Notes under the pieces: generated by a model
Seen by the model: only the letters and a program-made list of their open reading frames with translations
Told to the model about the DNA's origin: nothing
Database searches by the model: none
In this document: positions 1 to 7,789 of the stretch, one piece after another
How positions within the stretch are numbered: position 1 is the first letter of the stretch
How the letters are laid out: each line of letters opens with the position of its first letter
Origin: a bacterium
Lineage (GTDB): Bacteria; SZUA-182; DTGQ01
Length of the DNA stretch: 58,779 bases
Assembly (NCBI GenBank): GCA_023512255.1
Contig: JAILZY010000014.1
Location: 1 to 58,779, forward strand
Direction: 5' to 3'
Position numbers and translations under genes: made by a program

Positions 1-138
1 ATCGCTGGAAAGAAAAACAGTAGAAACTGCTTAAAGTAAATCTCTATGGCCTCTTTCCAGCCGCTGTCTGCCTCACTGCAGGCAGTCTCGTCGCTGGTCG
101 TAAGATCGCTGGTCGTAAGGTCGGTCTCCTCCATTAAG
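1..138. other. Left-edge non-coding sequence, possible eroded CRISPR unit
   Basis: No convincing gene is present. Positions 91-105 and 106-120 are a tandem 15-bp duplication (tcgctggtcgtaag core). At about 81-104, one period (60 bp) before the first recognisable CRISPR repeat, a weak partial match to the repeat (cgctg core) may be a further decayed copy. The window cuts the locus here, so an array or cas genes could continue to the left. Confidence 0.3.
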
Positions 139-334
139 CCTGCTCTCCATGCGCTGTAGGGTTAAGCCTCGGATGTGGCCAAAGCTGAGCGGCGGCGAAC
201 TGCTCTCCACGCGCTGTAGGGTTAACCGGGCAGGTGAGTTGCAGGACACTCAAGCCTCCCCTGCTCTCAATGTGTGCTGTAGGGTTAAGCTACACTGCCG
301 ACTGCCTCCCTGCTCTCCATGCGCTATAGGGTTA
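139..334 (+). CRISPR. Short degenerate CRISPR array (4 recognisable repeats)
   Basis: Four related copies of about 26-28 bp with core ctgctctccatgcgctgtag followed by ggttaa start near 139, 200, 261 and 310. The spacing is 60, 61 and 49 bp; 60-61 is the normal repeat+spacer period of type I-E (about 29+32). Copies 1 and 2 differ by one base, copy 3 carries a 2-bp insertion (tgtgtgctg), and copy 4 has gcgctatag and a changed 3' end. Read on the + strand the repeat resembles I-E repeats: a short C-rich arm, GCGC-like loop, G-rich arm (GTAGGG) and a TTAA tail where the 5' handle would be. The + strand hairpin, allowing G-U pairs, is better than the minus-strand one, so + transcription is favoured. 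The drift between copies suggests an old, inactive or end-of-array segment. It could instead be an unrelated degenerate tandem repeat. Confidence 0.6.
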
Positions 335-763
335 CCAAAACACCTATAAAAACACCCGCTAAAATTCCCTCACTCCCGTCGAGAAGAACTTTTAACTGTC
401 GAGTTAAATATTACTCAGGTTGAATTAAATATTACTCAACTGGTTTACTTAAGCGCTTATATTTATTATTTTACCATTCATGAACATCGGAATTCTAGTA
501 ACTTTTACCCCTGTATTCTCGCTTTTGTGGGAGTGAGGGAATTGTAAAGTGCGCAAGCTTGGGGCGGACCACAAGGTCTGCCCCTACAATTAGCTTATCC
601 GCACCTACAATTGATAGCGTAATTGATCCGCTGCGCGCTTTGTGTTACGCACTTAGCGAAAGAACCATCTGCTGATCCCTACACAATTGTGTAATTTGAT
701 CTGCTCTTGCGCCTAGAGCTTTTGCGCTTAGCAATAACCAATTAGTATTTATGAGCATCATCA
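335..763. other. Intergenic region between CRISPR repeats and cas1; no cas2
   Basis: AT-rich sequence (about 335-530) followed by a dispersed repeat (546-654). This is where cas2 normally sits, after cas1, but no reading frame resembling Cas2 (about 95 aa) is visible on the minus strand. The AT-rich part could be a leader if the array were transcribed leftward, although repeat orientation argues against that. Confidence 0.5.
545..655 (+). repeat. Dispersed repeat family B, copy 1 (MITE-like)
   Basis: Begins aaagtgcgcaa and ends ttgtgttacgcactt, which form imperfect terminal inverted repeats (AAGTGCGYAA). The internal segment (ggggcggacc, acaaggtctgcccctacaatt, aattgatccgctgcgc split over the element) recurs at 51081-51165 in inverted orientation and partly at 18666-18740. 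This copy contains an extra internal duplication of the cctacaatt segment. It has no coding capacity. Confidence 0.65.
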
Positions 764-1735
764 TTAGCCTCCGGGAAGGTTAAGTTTAGGTTTATCTGGA
801 TCAAGCGGCTGGATGCGGCCAGCTTCGACTTCTCCCACCTCAGGATCCCATAATGAGCCTGGGGAGGTAGGGTCCTGATCTAATAGTTCGGCCTCTTTTA
901 CCTGGTTTGGTGACAGCATCAGGGCTGATTGAATATCGGGAATAATCCTTTTGAGAAGACGCTTTTGCAGGAATTGGTCGCGGCAGGCGATTCGCACCTT
1001 TCGCTCCAGACTTTCAGTTTCTGTCGCGGCTGTTCTAAAGGCAACAGGGATGGTAATTTCTGCTTTGTAGATATCAGCGACATCGTAGACAAAGGAGAGC
1101 ATTCTGCCGGTGTGGATAAATCCAAGGGTAGGGGAGAAGCCAGCAGAGATAATGGCGGCATGACAGATTCCATAGAGGCAGGCATTAGCGGCTGAGAGGG
1201 CTCTGTTTACAGGGTCGGTTTTAGTCCAGTTATTTCGCTGATAATTTCGGCCTGACCAGGGGACGCCAGTTTCCTTGGCAGCCTTGGCGTATGCTTCTCG
1301 AACGCGGATTCCTTCCAGGCCACGGATTTGCCTAAGGGTTAAATCAGGGGCGAATTTTTCGGAAAATCGAAGCTGATAGAGACGGCGCACTACCTGCATC
1401 CGGGATTGATCATCTGCCCACATTCTGGCCTGGTGTAGAAAATTGGCAGCAGTTCTGGTTTCACCCATACCCGAGGCATAGAACCTAACTCCTTCTTCTC
1501 CGCACCAGGCGATAAGACAGCCGTGGTCTGACAAGACAAGAACGGCGGCGTGGGTGATGGAGACGCCAGGGCCTAGCATCAGAAGGGAGAGATTAGCACA
1601 GGGGACAGCTACCTTGCCTGTTTCTCTGTGGATAGCAATAGCCTGCTCCTCCTGGTCTATTCGGCAGTGCTCCAGATAGAGGTAGGACCAGCCGTCATTG
1701 AATTTAGGAAGGATATGTAGGTCTTGAATTCTCAT
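764..1735 (-). CDS. cas1: CRISPR-associated endonuclease Cas1, type I-E
   Basis: Spacer-integration nuclease/integrase of the CRISPR adaptation complex. The 323-residue protein aligns well by eye with E. coli Cas1. The four metal-binding residues fall at the same numbers as in E. coli: E141 (GLEGIR), H208 (FIHTG), D218 and D221 (VYDVADIYK). An SD-like AAAGGTGA precedes the ATG. The start overlaps the end of cas6e by 32 bp, implying translational coupling as the last gene of the operon. The partner gene cas2 is missing downstream, which is unusual because Cas1-Cas2 forms the integration complex. Cas1 therefore looks intact, but its adaptation function is uncertain unless Cas2 is encoded elsewhere. 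Confidence 0.95.
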   Translation of the reverse strand: MRIQDLHILPKFNDGWSYLYLEHCRIDQEEQAIAIHRETGKVAVPCANLSLLMLGPGVSITHAAVLVLSDHGCLIAWCGEEGVRFYASGMGETRTAANFLHQARMWADDQSRMQVVRRLYQLRFSEKFAPDLTLRQIRGLEGIRVREAYAKAAKETGVPWSGRNYQRNNWTKTDPVNRALSAANACLYGICHAAIISAGFSPTLGFIHTGRMLSFVYDVADIYKAEITIPVAFRTAATETESLERKVRIACRDQFLQKRLLKRIIPDIQSALMLSPNQVKEAELLDQDPTSPGSLWDPEVGEVEAGRIQPLDPDKPKLNLPGG

Positions 1736-2591
1736 ATTTCACCTTTAAGCAGATTTCACCTTCAGCGGAGCAATCAACCTCCAGCAGACCAAAGCCAAAG
1801 GCTTTGCCAGGGCCAAGGCCGCTGATAAGAGCTTGCCGCAGGCGGTCAGCATCGGTAACCTTGAGGATGCCTATATAGCGGGCAGAGCGAAGCCGGGCTT
1901 TGTGCTCCTTATGTTCCTCCTTATCGTTCTTAGATTCATAATATATTTTGCTGAAATAGACATAGCCAGTTTGAACGATGAGTCCCTGTGTTTCCACAGA
2001 GAAGCCATTTTCTTCGGCTCGCTTGATGAGCCACTCGTTGAGGTTATCGTCGCGGACAGGGACTCGCCTGCCTTGCTTAGCTTTTTGGCCGTCGGGGCCG
2101 ACTTTGGCGATCTTGCGGGTTGGATTGGCCAAGAGATGGAATCTGAGGCGTTGGCCATTTTCAAATTGCGGATTGAAGGGCTTTATTTCTGGCGGTGCAG
2201 CTAAGAGATATTCGGCATTATGGAAGGCATAGTCCCAGTCAGGTTCTAGCGCGGATTGAACGATGATTACCGGGTTTCTGGGAGGATATCTGTGAGGATA
2301 AATGCCAATCTCTCTGGGTGGATGAATGTCAATCCGAAAGAGGAAGCCGTGGTCAGGACCTCGGCGGACATGAACTTGATTAGGGTCGATGCTTTCTGGC
2401 TTATTTGGGCTAAAGTCTTCCGGTCTAAAGGGTTTTAGAAAGTGAGGATCATTACGCTTTTTAAAAGGGGCTGGGAAAGCCATAGACAGACGCTGGTGGA
2501 CGTGGTAGATGTTTCGCAGCCACAGCCGACCGGGTCTTGGGCGATCTGGATTATCGCCAACATCAATCAAGAGGATAGATCTATACAACAT
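1704..2591 (-). CDS. cas6e: CRISPR RNA-processing endoribonuclease Cas6e (Cse3)
   Basis: Cuts the CRISPR precursor transcript at the repeat hairpin and remains bound to the crRNA 3' end in Cascade. The 295-residue protein has the N-terminal YHVHQ motif (residues 29-33), whose His corresponds to the catalytic His of the Cse3 family (Y-x-x-HQ). It also has the C-terminal glycine-rich loop GLGPGKAFGFGLL (about 258-270) typical of Cas6e. It is somewhat longer than E. coli Cas6e (about 199 aa), with extra charged segments in the middle (about 65-85 and 165-220). The SD GAGGAGGTG lies inside the final codons of cas5, two bases after whose stop codon this ATG follows. Part of the minus-strand cas operon. 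Confidence 0.93.
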   Translation of the reverse strand: MLYRSILLIDVGDNPDRPRPGRLWLRNIYHVHQRLSMAFPAPFKKRNDPHFLKPFRPEDFSPNKPESIDPNQVHVRRGPDHGFLFRIDIHPPREIGIYPHRYPPRNPVIIVQSALEPDWDYAFHNAEYLLAAPPEIKPFNPQFENGQRLRFHLLANPTRKIAKVGPDGQKAKQGRRVPVRDDNLNEWLIKRAEENGFSVETQGLIVQTGYVYFSKIYYESKNDKEEHKEHKARLRSARYIGILKVTDADRLRQALISGLGPGKAFGFGLLEVDCSAEGEICLKVKYENSRPTYPS

Positions 2592-2593
2592 TA

Positions 2594-3961
2594 TTACACC
2601 TCCTCGGGAGCAAGACGGCGGCGGCGGGTACTTAAGGAGCGAAATTTGATAATCTCCGCTCTTTTTTTGATGATTTCCTGACGCCAGCGTTCCTCTTCGG
2701 GGTTTATCCTATCTAGGCCCATCCCTAAGCCGTATTCAATCATGGTTACGGCATCGTGGCAGAGGCGGCAGAGGGAGCGAAGGTCGTCTATGGCCTCATG
2801 GCCGCCAGCTCGGCTATAGGTGATATGCTGGACAGTGGTGGCCGGAGCTTTACAGAAGACACAGAGGTTATAGTCATATTTGAGGCGCTCCTTCCGACGC
2901 TTTTTGTATTCGCTGTTGGTGTAGTTAGCTCGAGGGCGAGGCGGCGGTTGGGGGAGGCTCTGGCTAGGCTTTTTGTCGATTTTGATCTGGCCGTTATCTC
3001 CTACAGTCAATATCTTGCGGATGACAATGCGGGGGAGATGAGCAGGGGGATCAAAGGTTATGGGCACATCATACCATATTTCTTCGGTTTCTTCGGGCCA
3101 GTTTTGTTCGGCTGAGGGCTCGGCGGCTGAGGCTGAGGGCTCGGTCTGCGGCAGCACCAGCTCAGGCGGTGGGGACTCATGCAGTGTGGATTCCTGAGCG
3201 AGCGGCTGAGATTCCTGATCACGGTCGAGGAGGCAGGTTATGGTTTTGGGCGGGGGATCTTTCTCAAGCCGCGGGCGCCAGGGGATGGCAGTAATGGCCG
3301 AAAGAAGATCAGGATAGTAGGCTGGATTGGAGTAAGAACAATTGGAGTAAGAATAAGAGGATGATTGAGGATATTCTAAGGGTTTTGAAGATTCTAAGGG
3401 TTTTGAAGGAGGGGATTCTGAGTACTCTGAGGGAGAAGAAGAAGATTCTGATGTTTTTGAGGGATAAGATTCAAAGATTGGCCGACTGGGCGGACAAGAC
3501 TTTCTGCCGAGGTAAAGCGTCCATTTAGGTTTTTGAACTGCTTCGGCCAGCTCAGCGATCAGAGCAGGATCCCCTTGGAGGGCGACTAGAAAAGAGGCAT
3601 CACAGAGATACTCACGATAGGTAAGCATTGTCTTTCCCTTTGGTTTGCCTTCAGCAGTAGGCATTGCCCTTTTGGCGCCGACAGTGTTATAGTCAGACCA
3701 AAGGAAGCCGGGGGCATCGAGGCGAGCGGCCATGCGAAGGCTTGCTAACTGTGCAATTTTAGCCACTTCGGAGCGAGGGACACCCAAGGCGGCACAGAGT
3801 ATGCCGATCACGCCAGATTTAGTAGGGGCCTTGGCTGTTCGTCGGACAATGAACTTTGAGCGATGATCACCCCAGGCTTGCAGTGGGCCTTCAAGCCGAA
3901 GAAAAAGAGTGTTTGGGGCATGGGAGGTTGATGCAGTAGAAAGATCGTAAGCAGCCATCAT
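2594..3961 (-). CDS. cas5: Cas5e fused to C-terminal HNH nuclease domain
   Basis: Cascade backbone subunit that caps the crRNA 5' handle, here carrying an added nuclease. Residues about 17-165 are a clear Cas5e core (LRLEGPLQAWG; YREYLCDASF; YLGRKSCP, all matching E. coli CasD positions). Residues about 165-290 are a Ser/Pro/Glu/Tyr-rich low-complexity insertion with in-frame micro-duplications (SKPLES-SKPLE; SYSNCSYSN). Residues about 290-320 (EIWYDVPITFD, PRIVIRKI) look like the displaced last Cas5 strands. After a Pro-rich linker an HNH fold follows (about 347-412): C367-x2-C370, Q378-H379 (general-base position), D392/D393, then C398-x2-C401-H402. The frame is continuous over 455 codons, against about 225-245 aa for usual Cas5e. 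The ATG at 3961 overlaps the cas7e stop; the next codon (3958) is better spaced from AGGAGGGG. No Cas3 is present, so the HNH is the only recognisable target-DNA nuclease encoded at the locus. Confidence 0.93.
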   Translation of the reverse strand: MMAAYDLSTASTSHAPNTLFLRLEGPLQAWGDHRSKFIVRRTAKAPTKSGVIGILCAALGVPRSEVAKIAQLASLRMAARLDAPGFLWSDYNTVGAKRAMPTAEGKPKGKTMLTYREYLCDASFLVALQGDPALIAELAEAVQKPKWTLYLGRKSCPPSRPIFESYPSKTSESSSSPSEYSESPPSKPLESSKPLEYPQSSSYSYSNCSYSNPAYYPDLLSAITAIPWRPRLEKDPPPKTITCLLDRDQESQPLAQESTLHESPPPELVLPQTEPSASAAEPSAEQNWPEETEEIWYDVPITFDPPAHLPRIVIRKILTVGDNGQIKIDKKPSQSLPQPPPRPRANYTNSEYKKRRKERLKYDYNLCVFCKAPATTVQHITYSRAGGHEAIDDLRSLCRLCHDAVTMIEYGLGMGLDRINPEEERWRQEIIKKRAEIIKFRSLSTRRRRLAPEEV

Positions 3962-5379
3962 CCCCTCCTATTCCTAATGGTTACTATACTCCCTATGTTT
4001 AGCACTTCTTTTTGGACCTCTTCCCAGGTCAGGTCAGGGTGGTTGATCTCCTGGCCGAGTTTTTTGATTAGGCTAGAGAGGGTTTCATCGAGCGAGGTAA
4101 CATCTGAATCTACAGCGACATTAACGGCGACATTAGCGGCGACATTAGCGGCGGCTGAATCTACAGCGACGTTAGCGGTGGCTGAATCTATAGCGACGTT
4201 AGCGGTGGCTGAATCTACAGCGACATTAGCGGCGGCGGTGGCCTTTAGGCCATTATCAATATTTTTTGGAGAATAGCGGCCGTTAGGTGAAAACCAGAGG
4301 CGCCAGTCGGGCCGGCCATACCCTTGGTCTATGTCGTTGATATAGGTAATCAATTGAGCGATGCTCTGCCAGATGAGATCACGATCGTCGTCTTGATTAA
4401 CCGGCTTAGCGAAGGCATTGGCGTAGTTAACAGGTGTATTTTTCTTTTTGAGCTCGATCACTAGACAAGAGGGTGGGTTATGAGCGGCGAAGCTGTTTTG
4501 CTTGCCGGTTGGGTTAACCAGAGCTGCGGCCTTGATAAATGCTCCGACTGTGTGGGCAGCGAGTTTTTTGTTGCCCTTGAGATTGGCGAGCAGTGTTTCC
4601 CAATTGATGGAAAAGTATTTGTAAAAGCAGGCTGAAGTAAACATAGCTTCATCAAGATAGCCTGCTCCTGCATCTTCACCTGGGATATCGTCAGCAGCTA
4701 CATAATAATCAATTTCAAGACGGGCCTCATGGGTACTTATGGCATGGGCAACCTGAAGAGCGGCTTCAACCTGAGTATTGAGGTTTTCCCTATCGAGCTT
4801 TTCCCAGATTTTAGCATTTTTACTAGGCTCCAACATCCGACCATAGAGGGCCATGTCTGGCGCTACTGTTAGCTCGGCGATCAGGCGGGCGAATTCTTCA
4901 GCTAAGGTTTTATTATCTTTCTTTTCATTCTTCAGGAGAAGCTCGGCCATCTTATCAATAGCCTCTTGGGTTGTGTAGACAAGCATTTTCGAGGACTTGG
5001 CCGGATCACTATCAGTACCGCTATCATCATCATTATCATCATTTACCTCACCATCCACATTTTTTTTGGCTTTCTTAGAGCTGGAGGTCTTAGGTTTAAT
5101 CCCACACTTATCCAGAATGTTCTCGATGCGGTCTTTCATCTTTTTGTTAGGATTAGCGGCGGTTATTCTTTTGTCGATCTCTTCAGCCAAACGTCGGGTG
5201 CGGACGCCGCCGAGCAGGTTTTCGAATTCTTTGCTTAGGCGAATACTGCGCTTTAGGCATTGGCTTGAGATGCGCGAGCGCAATACCCCTCCAAAATAGC
5301 ATGTTTTAGGTGCTCCGAGGTCATCCCGATTTAAATTGGCTGGACTGTGATTTTGAATAGCATGGATTTCGATCAGCAT
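3958..5379 (-). CDS. cas7e: Cascade backbone subunit Cas7e (Cse4/CasC) with internal repeats
   Basis: Forms the crRNA-binding filament of Cascade. The 473-residue protein matches CasC at its N-terminus (HSPANLNRDD; GGVLRSRISSQCLKRS) and in the middle (DMALYGRM; ALQVAHAISTHE; DYYVAADD; YANAFAKPV). It is about 100 residues longer than typical for two reasons. One is an acidic/Lys low-complexity insertion at about 97-132. The other is a run of 9-residue repeats (TANVAVDSA type, residues about 382-425) encoded by 27-bp tandem repeats around 4105-4235. The C-terminal strands (LTWEEVQKEVLN, GSIVTIRNR) follow the repeats. Its stop overlaps the cas5 start (TGATG). The ribosome-binding region is tandemly duplicated just upstream. 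Confidence 0.92.
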   Translation of the reverse strand: MLIEIHAIQNHSPANLNRDDLGAPKTCYFGGVLRSRISSQCLKRSIRLSKEFENLLGGVRTRRLAEEIDKRITAANPNKKMKDRIENILDKCGIKPKTSSSKKAKKNVDGEVNDDNDDDSGTDSDPAKSSKMLVYTTQEAIDKMAELLLKNEKKDNKTLAEEFARLIAELTVAPDMALYGRMLEPSKNAKIWEKLDRENLNTQVEAALQVAHAISTHEARLEIDYYVAADDIPGEDAGAGYLDEAMFTSACFYKYFSINWETLLANLKGNKKLAAHTVGAFIKAAALVNPTGKQNSFAAHNPPSCLVIELKKKNTPVNYANAFAKPVNQDDDRDLIWQSIAQLITYINDIDQGYGRPDWRLWFSPNGRYSPKNIDNGLKATAAANVAVDSATANVAIDSATANVAVDSAAANVAANVAVNVAVDSDVTSLDETLSSLIKKLGQEINHPDLTWEEVQKEVLNIGSIVTIRNRRG

Positions 5380-5470: not shown

Positions 5471-5995
5471 TCAATGGTGTCTCAAGTTGTTCAAAAACTC
5501 CTCTGCCCACCTGAGGCGAACGGATTCACGTTCCCAGATGGAGAGATCATCTGTCAGCTTGACCCAATTTAGGCTCATATGGTTTGAATAGAGCAGAGCA
5601 AGAGCCCACCTGAGAGCAGGCTCTATATTGTGGAGCGGTAATATAAGGAGAGTGTCAAAGCGGTAGCGAAATTTTTCATCTTTTGGTGGGCATAATAGAG
5701 CCAGTTGCCGGGCCAGGGTTTTGGTTTCGTCTTCTGAGGAGTGAGCAATGGGATAGCAGGCGTAGAGTTTGGCTATCATCCAGGCCACCTGACGCCGCGG
5801 GGCTCTCTGGCTTTTCTGGCGCAATGGCCACCAGAGGCCGGTAAACAGGTCAAAGCCAGTGAGCGTGTGGTCTAGCCCTTGGTCAGCAGAAGAGCGTAGG
5901 AGACTGAGTTCCCCCTTTTTGACTGTGTTCTCCAAAATATGGATATATTGTTCAGTTGGGGTCATTTTATTTGACTTTTTTTCAGTTAGGGTCAT
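5471..5995 (-). CDS. cas11e: Cascade small subunit Cas11e (Cse2/CasB)
   Basis: Small helical subunit that bridges the inner face of type I-E Cascade. The 174-residue length is typical. Recognisable family features are the helical, basic-rich sequence, LWWPLRQ, the RQVAWMIAKLYACYP helix, and the terminal segment WAEEFLNNL. The ATG overlaps the cas8e stop by 4 bp (ATGA), with AGGAGG about 12 bp upstream. The start region contains a short duplication, encoding MTLTEK and then MTPTEQ; a second ATG at 5965 is possible but has no good SD. Identity rests on position between cas8e and cas7e together with these weak motifs. Confidence 0.85.
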   Translation of the reverse strand: MTLTEKKSNKMTPTEQYIHILENTVKKGELSLLRSSADQGLDHTLTGFDLFTGLWWPLRQKSQRAPRRQVAWMIAKLYACYPIAHSSEDETKTLARQLALLCPPKDEKFRYRFDTLLILPLHNIEPALRWALALLYSNHMSLNWVKLTDDLSIWERESVRLRWAEEFLNNLRHH

Positions 5996-7455
5996 TGGGT
6001 AATCGCCTCCTTTCCCCGGCGTGCTTGTGATTTACGCTTGCTGGACTTGGATTTACTCAGGTTAAGGCTAAGCTTATGCTGAGTTTTTTGGAAAAGGCTA
6101 TCTTGCTCCTCAAGGTATGAGAGATATGAGGGCTTAGGAGCCAGCTTAGGGGCCAGATTAGGAGCCAGAAATGATTTGACAATAGCTTTCACAACTGGGG
6201 CTACGGCTTCCATAACCTGAGGAGGCAGATCGACTTTTTTTCCCCCTCCTTTTCGGCCTTTGTCATCTTTGGGGGTAAATTTGTCTGCGGCGCTGCCTTC
6301 AGCGGTTAATTTATCCGCTGCTGCGGTGGCGTCGGCAGCGACATCTCTGATCATAGCACCCTCTTCGATCAGGGAATGAACAGGATGATGGATATATTTA
6401 AGGGAGCGATTAATAAGTTTTTCTTCTTTGGACTTATTTTTATTTTGGTAAAGGCTATCCACGTTTGAGAAGTTCTCGATCAGCCTCTTTTGCTGGTCGA
6501 TGCAATTTTGATGATGATCTGAGGGGATGGATGGAGGAATTCTATATTTATATTCCGAGGCCTCGAAATATTTAGCTTGATTTGTTGAGAAGTTGACCAG
6601 CCACCAGGTGGATGAATTTGCCTGGGGCATGGGGCTGATATGGGGATCGGTCCAGTTGGGCTTTTGAATTTTAGGTGCAGGTTCAAATATACAGTAGCGG
6701 ATCAGGGGCGCTTTTTGCCCACATGAGATGCAATTGGCAGGATGGTCATCAGGATCATCCAGCCACACCAGACGAGGCAGCCAGGTCAAGCCGAAGAGCA
6801 GAGGCAAAGGATCCTTAGAAGAGTCAGGAGACGGCAGCTCTTTTTCCCATTGTGGATAGCCTATATTTGCCGCCCGCTGCCATAAGAGGAGCAGAGTATC
6901 GGCAAGTGATGAGCCTGTAGGGAAAATGTAAATCGGCGGTGCCCCATTGATGCCACGAATATTTCCTGGTCCTCTAACAGTACTAAATGGAGGCAGTCTC
7001 AATAAGCCTATAGCACAGCAGGGTAGACATAAACCGTTTTGGCCATCGATTGAATGCCGAAAGTGCCACCAATTGCTACCAGTAGGTACTTCATGTATAA
7101 GATAGTTGGCACTTTTTTTCTCATTACTTTTTTTCTTCTTATAGCTAATTTCACGATGCTGATAGAATCTTTTGCTATCGCCCAGAAGATTAAAGCAGTC
7201 TTTGTTTTCTTTGAGTTTTGACCAGTCTGTAGGAAAGGAATTAGGGGATGAATGGCGGTCTGGCGGATTGCCGTGGCACCAATAGAGGAGGGCGAGCAAA
7301 AAGCGCAAGATAGCGGCGCGATCCATAGGGTTAGAGCTGGCTATTTGGCGAATGGCATGGGCTTCAGCTAGGGTCTGGGAAATGCCAAGACGATCAAATG
7401 CTCCATTTTTGAATAAAACTGGAATCCATTTTTCATCCAAAAGGTTATAGTTCAT
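5992..7455 (-). CDS. cas8e: Cascade large subunit Cas8e (Cse1/CasA)
   Basis: Large subunit of type I-E Cascade that reads the PAM and, in canonical systems, recruits Cas3. The N-terminus (YNLLDEKWIPVLFKNG; a leucine-rich helix with ISQTLAEAHAIRQIA) and the middle (FSTVRGPG; LLLLWQRAANIGYP; LTWLPRLVWLD; CISCGQ) are characteristic of Cse1. Length from this start is 487 aa, near the family norm. The start at 7455 is chosen because AAGGAG lies 8 bp upstream; a GTG 24 bp earlier is less likely. The C-terminal four-helix region is interrupted by low complexity (Ala/Asp/Lys-rich, about 365-410, and a repeated LAPK/LAPN segment near 435). First gene of the operon. No cas3 lies upstream; the next gene is rtcB. 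Confidence 0.9.
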   Translation of the reverse strand: MNYNLLDEKWIPVLFKNGAFDRLGISQTLAEAHAIRQIASSNPMDRAAILRFLLALLYWCHGNPPDRHSSPNSFPTDWSKLKENKDCFNLLGDSKRFYQHREISYKKKKSNEKKSANYLIHEVPTGSNWWHFRHSIDGQNGLCLPCCAIGLLRLPPFSTVRGPGNIRGINGAPPIYIFPTGSSLADTLLLLWQRAANIGYPQWEKELPSPDSSKDPLPLLFGLTWLPRLVWLDDPDDHPANCISCGQKAPLIRYCIFEPAPKIQKPNWTDPHISPMPQANSSTWWLVNFSTNQAKYFEASEYKYRIPPSIPSDHHQNCIDQQKRLIENFSNVDSLYQNKNKSKEEKLINRSLKYIHHPVHSLIEEGAMIRDVAADATAAADKLTAEGSAADKFTPKDDKGRKGGGKKVDLPPQVMEAVAPVVKAIVKSFLAPNLAPKLAPKPSYLSYLEEQDSLFQKTQHKLSLNLSKSKSSKRKSQARRGKEAITQ

Positions 7456-7789
7456 AGTCGTCTCCTTGGTATTTTTCACTATGGCACATTTTATATGGCA
7501 ACAGACATATTTTATAAAAGTTATAGCTTATAAAAGTTACAGCCGTCATTTTGAGCGAAAGCGGGAATCCAGACTTTTCAAAGGATTCTGGTTCTTTTCT
7601 TTCGCAGGTTAGCGAAAAATGCCAGCGGCTGCTTTCAAATTCTGCCGATAGACATGCCTGGTCATTAAAAAGTGCCTGACACAGTGAATATTTTTAGCTT
7701 ATTATTTTTATTTTTTATTTATTATAGTGTTTCAAACATAAATTTTCAAATTTAATTTAGAAAAAAATTTTTTGGTATATGTATTTTGG

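Follow-up and report, generated by a model that had tools for sequence, protein, structure and literature searches.

The gene analysed here encodes, with a probability that we put at about 0.88, an ordinary Cas5-HNH nuclease subunit of a known type I-E2 (HNH-Cascade) system. By alignment, the Gln-His pair of its HNH site is the norm in the Cas5-HNH family, the active solved member included. The stretch of DNA that was analysed (58,779 nucleotides, hereafter the window) carries cas8e-cas11-cas7-cas5HNH-cas6e-cas1 in this order on one strand, and the I-E-type Cascade set is complete (Table 1). The N-terminal part of the protein was matched by Cas5 (Pfam Cas_Cas5d, 3.6e-42) and its C-terminal part by the HNH family PF01844 (24.7 bits; cut-off, 21.4). 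The layout comprises a Cas5e domain (residues ~18-185), low-complexity linkers (~165-290) and the HNH domain (~345-430), then a C-terminal helix. The HNH catalytic triad is present as H379, D393 and H402, and every residue named in the first-pass annotation (C367-x2-C370, Q378-H379, D392-D393, C398-x2-C401-H402 and T406) lies exactly where it had been placed.

Table 1. Positions in the window of the Cas5-HNH gene, its active-site motifs and the neighbouring features.
Feature	Position	Strand	Evidence or reading
Probable relic array	139..334	.	four diverged ~26-nt repeats, uneven spacing (60, 63, 47)
cas1	764..1735	-	PF01867, 4.8e-20
cas6e	1704..2591	-	PF08798, 8e-39
Cas5-HNH, 455 aa	2594..3961	-	PF09704 + PF01844; PDB 8yb6 chain A, 4e-106
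T406	2744..2746	-	at the final His of CHxxxH-type HNHs; Thr family-wide
CRLCH (398-402)	2756..2770	-	C398-x2-C401, zinc knuckle half 2; H402, third HNH residue, predicted metal ligand
DDLRSLC (392-398)	2768-2788	-	
D392-D393	2783..2788	-	D393, middle (N/D) position of the HNH triad
TVQHITY (376-382)	2816-2836	-	
Q378-H379	2825..2830	-	H379, predicted general base; Q378 at the usual Asp/His metal-ligand position
CVFC (C367 + C370)	2852..2863	-	structural zinc knuckle half 1; C367 60/60, C370 59/60
cas7e	3958..5379	-	PF09344, 6.3e-93
cas11e (cse2)	5471..5995	-	PF09485, 1.9e-15
cas8e (cse1)	5992..7479	-	end-to-end alignment with relatives; C-terminal third diverged

No cas3 was detected by tblastn within the 14 kb tested around the window gene or in any Cas5-HNH locus tested, including the distant locus L092, where 17.5 kb were covered, and the same search recovered cas3 in all four canonical I-E loci at 2e-54 or better. 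One of these controls came from a genome of the same genus (G001, L094), in which a canonical I-E locus carries cas3 and a Cas5 without an HNH domain. A cas3 hidden elsewhere in the genome (96.6% complete) was rejected, as the genome-wide Cas3_HD search gave a single sub-threshold match, the HD domain of a Cas10-like protein. The latter (L070 1477-3249, G000:C144) suggests a separate type III system in the same genome. A Cas5-HNH fusion together with an I-E Cascade and without Cas3 corresponds to the published I-E2 variant (PMC10910872; PMC12669027).

The top PDB match of the window protein was the Cas5-HNH of Ca. Cloacimonetes, whose I-E2 system (PDB 8yb6, 8zlu, 8zp7, 9jxs; Altae-Tran 2023) has the gene content, the Cas5-HNH fusion and the lack of cas3 in common with our locus. 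Identity across the HNH region is about 55%, and the relative, solved by cryo-EM (8yb6/8zlu/8zp7), has the same TTVQH...EDLRALCRLCHDACT site, also written TTVQH / DLR-LCRLCHDA-T; the solved Cas5-HNH chain in 9jxs carries Ala at the equivalent of H402. The window protein has 455 aa and the relative 388 aa, the surplus of 67 aa over the solved homologue being low-complexity linker sequence (window about 3095-3470). A tandem expansion of 9-aa units was also seen in cas7 (window 4088-4236). A structural study of a type I-E Cas5-HNH complex has reportedly been presented by Zhang et al. in 2024 (Mol Cell). For cleavage and the architecture of the complex we rely on published work on the close relative; the gene content, the lack of cas3, the fold and the family-wide conservation come from the present analysis. 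The Ca. Cloacimonetes system cleaves dsDNA in a PAM-dependent manner, leaving 3' overhangs PAM-distally, and also shows ssDNA and collateral ssDNA cleavage; editing was lost when the HNH catalytic residues were mutated (PMC10910872). Its HNH domain is lodged between Cas6 and Cas11 and is repositioned upon R-loop formation (PMC11822464).

Scanning 84,980 species genomes with the seed peptides TTVQH[VI][TN]Y and LCRLCHDA yielded 54 Cas5-HNH loci spanning at least ten phyla, including Planctomycetota, Chloroflexota, Armatimonadota, Nitrospirota, Nitrospinota, Hydrogenedentota, Sumerlaeota, Cloacimonadota, Myxococcota, Thermodesulfobacteriota and others. When 60 sequences were aligned, H379, H402 and Y382 were found in all of them and the four zinc cysteines in 59-60 of 60. 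Gln stands at position 378 in 58 sequences (His in the other two) and Thr at 406 in 59 (Ser in one), while position 393 is Asp in 46, Glu in 13 and another residue in one, and is thus acidic in 59/60. Given that seeds containing QH could inflate the Gln count, as indicated by the His variant L180 that the pattern scan missed, a profile-only set of 19 loci (window included) was used as a check; it showed Gln in 17 and His in 2, Thr in 18 and Ser in 1, and both catalytic His residues in 19/19. AlphaFold2 modelled the HNH region as a confident beta-beta-alpha fold (pLDDT 86.5; strands at 77-80 and 95-98 and a helix at 100-113 of the modelled piece), for which Foldseek ranked the Ca. Cloacimonetes Cas5-HNH complexes (8yb6 among them) first (1.8e-14) and the phage GVE2 HNH (5h0m) next. 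Given its confident fold and its conservation in 60 homologues that span ten or more phyla, the HNH block is not a product of chance.

Several further observations were made in the family. All 60 sequences, the zinc-less one included, share E409, Y410, R418 and P421 (window 2699-2737; E409-Y410 at 2732-2737). His-His replaces Gln-His in L047 (3477-3932) and L180, both of which retain the terminal Thr of the CHDA-T motif, and also in L092 (1477-2673, minus; contig L093), a distant Cas5-HNH in which the zinc cysteines are largely gone (CALT, LSRIA) and both catalytic His residues and the Asp are retained. A Cloacimonadota genome bin (G065) contains two different Cas5-HNH loci (L062, L064), and in Ca. 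Magnetomicrobium (L014 6311-7324) the cas8e frame ends early at 338 aa, possibly reflecting a broken copy.

Outside the family the picture differs. The comparison with HNH families and other Cas5-HNH proteins, which had been proposed as a check, showed Gln-His as the Cas5-HNH norm and in 0/76 of the other HNH domains sampled. The census of PF01844 and HNH_5 matches in other genomes was corrected by hand, favours best-scoring matches and lost 4 of 66 rows as regex artefacts; its 62 readable sites comprise 55 Asp-His, six His-His, one Gly-His and no Gln-His pair. Likewise, the 14 non-Cas5 HNHs matched by the Cas5-HNH profile carry Asp-His or His-His, with Gln-His in 0/14. The Gln is therefore unusual among HNHs in general and, in Cas5-HNH, compatible with activity. 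The HH...CHxxxH subclass pattern is absent, as the window protein and nearly all of its relatives have Gln and Thr at the two positions where His occurs in the HNHs of this type that we inspected (IscB-like L087; L181, L185, L186), which have a CHDAV- or CHxxxH-like helix and, in most cases, zinc knuckles.

Among solved HNHs other than Cas5-HNH, that of phage GVE2 is the closest by profile as well as by fold. It shares the beta-beta-alpha fold, two CxxC zinc motifs, the triad H93/N109/H118 and a Thr four residues past the third His; it differs in having Asp-His instead of Gln-His and Asn instead of Asp, and in being a free-standing nickase. This well-studied HNHE nicks DNA with Mn as its best metal, and its third His is followed by N-R-K-T (PMC5304195; residues read from a printed mutagenic primer). 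Given the Thr in its CHNRKT motif, a terminal Thr does not count as a loss against every HNH subclass. The His-to-Thr change was read correctly as a residue, yet it is no oddity, being shared by the family and by GVE2 HNHE. In the type I-F4 Cas8-HNH of Selenomonas sp., where an HNH also replaces Cas3, the triad H304/N318/H327 has the same +14/+9 spacing as H379/D393/H402, but the domain sits in Cas8f, not in Cas5, and the middle residue is Asn instead of Asp. The +9 step of D393/H402 recurs in DinG-HNH (D514/H523).

Whether the window copy works has to be judged from its site and from the state of its locus. A weakened or dead HNH, leaving the complex as a crRNA-guided binder, would fit the change of two metal-binding positions of His-rich HNHs (Q378, T406) as well as the absent cas2 and the degenerate array. 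We regard this as very unlikely, since the same changes occur in the active Ca. Cloacimonetes enzyme and are kept in distant members with intact arrays, and the catalytic residues are invariant. The description of the site as "active but divergent" in the first-pass annotation is consequently upheld in its first half by analogy, the catalytic His, the acidic middle residue and the zinc cysteines being kept and an active relative having the same Q/D/H/T. The second half fails within Cas5-HNH, where the site is standard, and applies only in comparison with HNHs in general. Nor do all active homologues have an essential ligand in place of this Gln, as the active Cas5-HNH itself carries Gln. We therefore infer by analogy that the window copy is probably an active nuclease.

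The adaptation part of the locus is less complete. Where the contigs of relatives reach far enough, cas1 is followed by cas2, and most relatives then carry a regular I-E array. An adjacent cas1-cas2 pair with an I-E repeat array is usual, not required, in I-E2; here cas1 is present, cas2 beside it was absent from window positions 1-763, and tblastn with the Cas2 proteins of eight relatives gave no convincing match. The genome-wide cas2 profile search (PF09707) also gave no match, a weak result on its own given that the profile missed the E. coli control. Unlike the Ca. Cloacimonetes locus, the window locus thus lacks cas2 and an intact array. With cas2 missing and the repeats near cas1 apparently decayed, spacer acquisition may have ceased at this locus, or its supply of crRNA may be poor. 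With open interference genes that align over their full length, the window copy is probably able to act, its spacer supply being doubtful. A frameshift in the Cas8e C-terminus was considered and rejected, as the protein aligns to its end with relatives in one frame.

What the Gln does in the site is a more speculative matter. Tentatively, Q378 might shift the metal preference of the whole Cas5-HNH family (e.g. Mn, Ni or Zn over Mg) relative to Asp-His HNHs. It occupies the place of Asp40 of T4 EndoVII, which binds Mg, and of Asp1020 of ZRANB3, where D1020A abolished activity (PMC5481773), and it was not seen in the other HNH domains sampled. Metal choice does vary among HNHs: GVE2 HNHE and the Geobacter enzyme (Gme HNHE), in which Asp53 is thought to stabilise the metal ion, both favour Mn (PMC3765158 for the latter). 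However, the discovery paper does not say in its main text which metal was used, and a neutral ligand alone does not fix metal choice. It is also conceivable, with a chance well below even, that Q378 is no ligand and instead contacts DNA or tunes H379, with H402, D393, water and phosphate holding the metal; Gln coordinates metals weakly, and the acidic residue at position 393 means that an acidic group is always near. Against this, the sole natural replacement seen for Q378 is His (L047, L092, L180), a ligand-type residue, which fits a ligand role without proving it. As a cautious proposal that we hold to be possible and not probable, the Cas5-HNH proteins would constitute an HNH subclass marked by a Gln-His catalytic pair: a neutral Gln would stand in for the metal-binding Asp or His and confer a distinct metal dependence on the effector, with rare members carrying His.

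In the mechanism that we favour for the I-E2 nuclease subunit, Cas5 would anchor the HNH domain within Cascade, and upon crRNA-guided R-loop formation the HNH would cut both strands PAM-distally in place of Cas3; such crRNA-guided cleavage has been demonstrated in the Ca. Cloacimonetes system alone. By homology with His304 of Cas8-HNH, H379 would act as the general base. H402 is predicted to bind the catalytic divalent metal, and from its alignment position the side-chain oxygen of Q378 is the most likely substitute for the usual Asp or His co-ligand; D393 would fill the middle orienting position, and C367, C370, C398 and C401 would hold a structural zinc.

Searches of phage records gave no match to Cas5-HNH, and among the plasmid matches listed only Cas5e-domain matches occurred, each spanning roughly one third of the query. 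A single 8-kb contig from the viral set was matched (L066), too short to be called viral. The present analysis extends the I-E2 variant, which has been described as rare, by dozens of loci, and what looked like a peculiarity of one protein becomes a rule for the family, an active-site Gln that is nearly fixed in I-E2 effectors of at least ten phyla. This raises a clear, testable question on the use of metals by an HNH effector that is being explored for genome editing, with natural His variants to hand. An altered metal preference, if true, would be a trait of the whole Cas5-HNH family.
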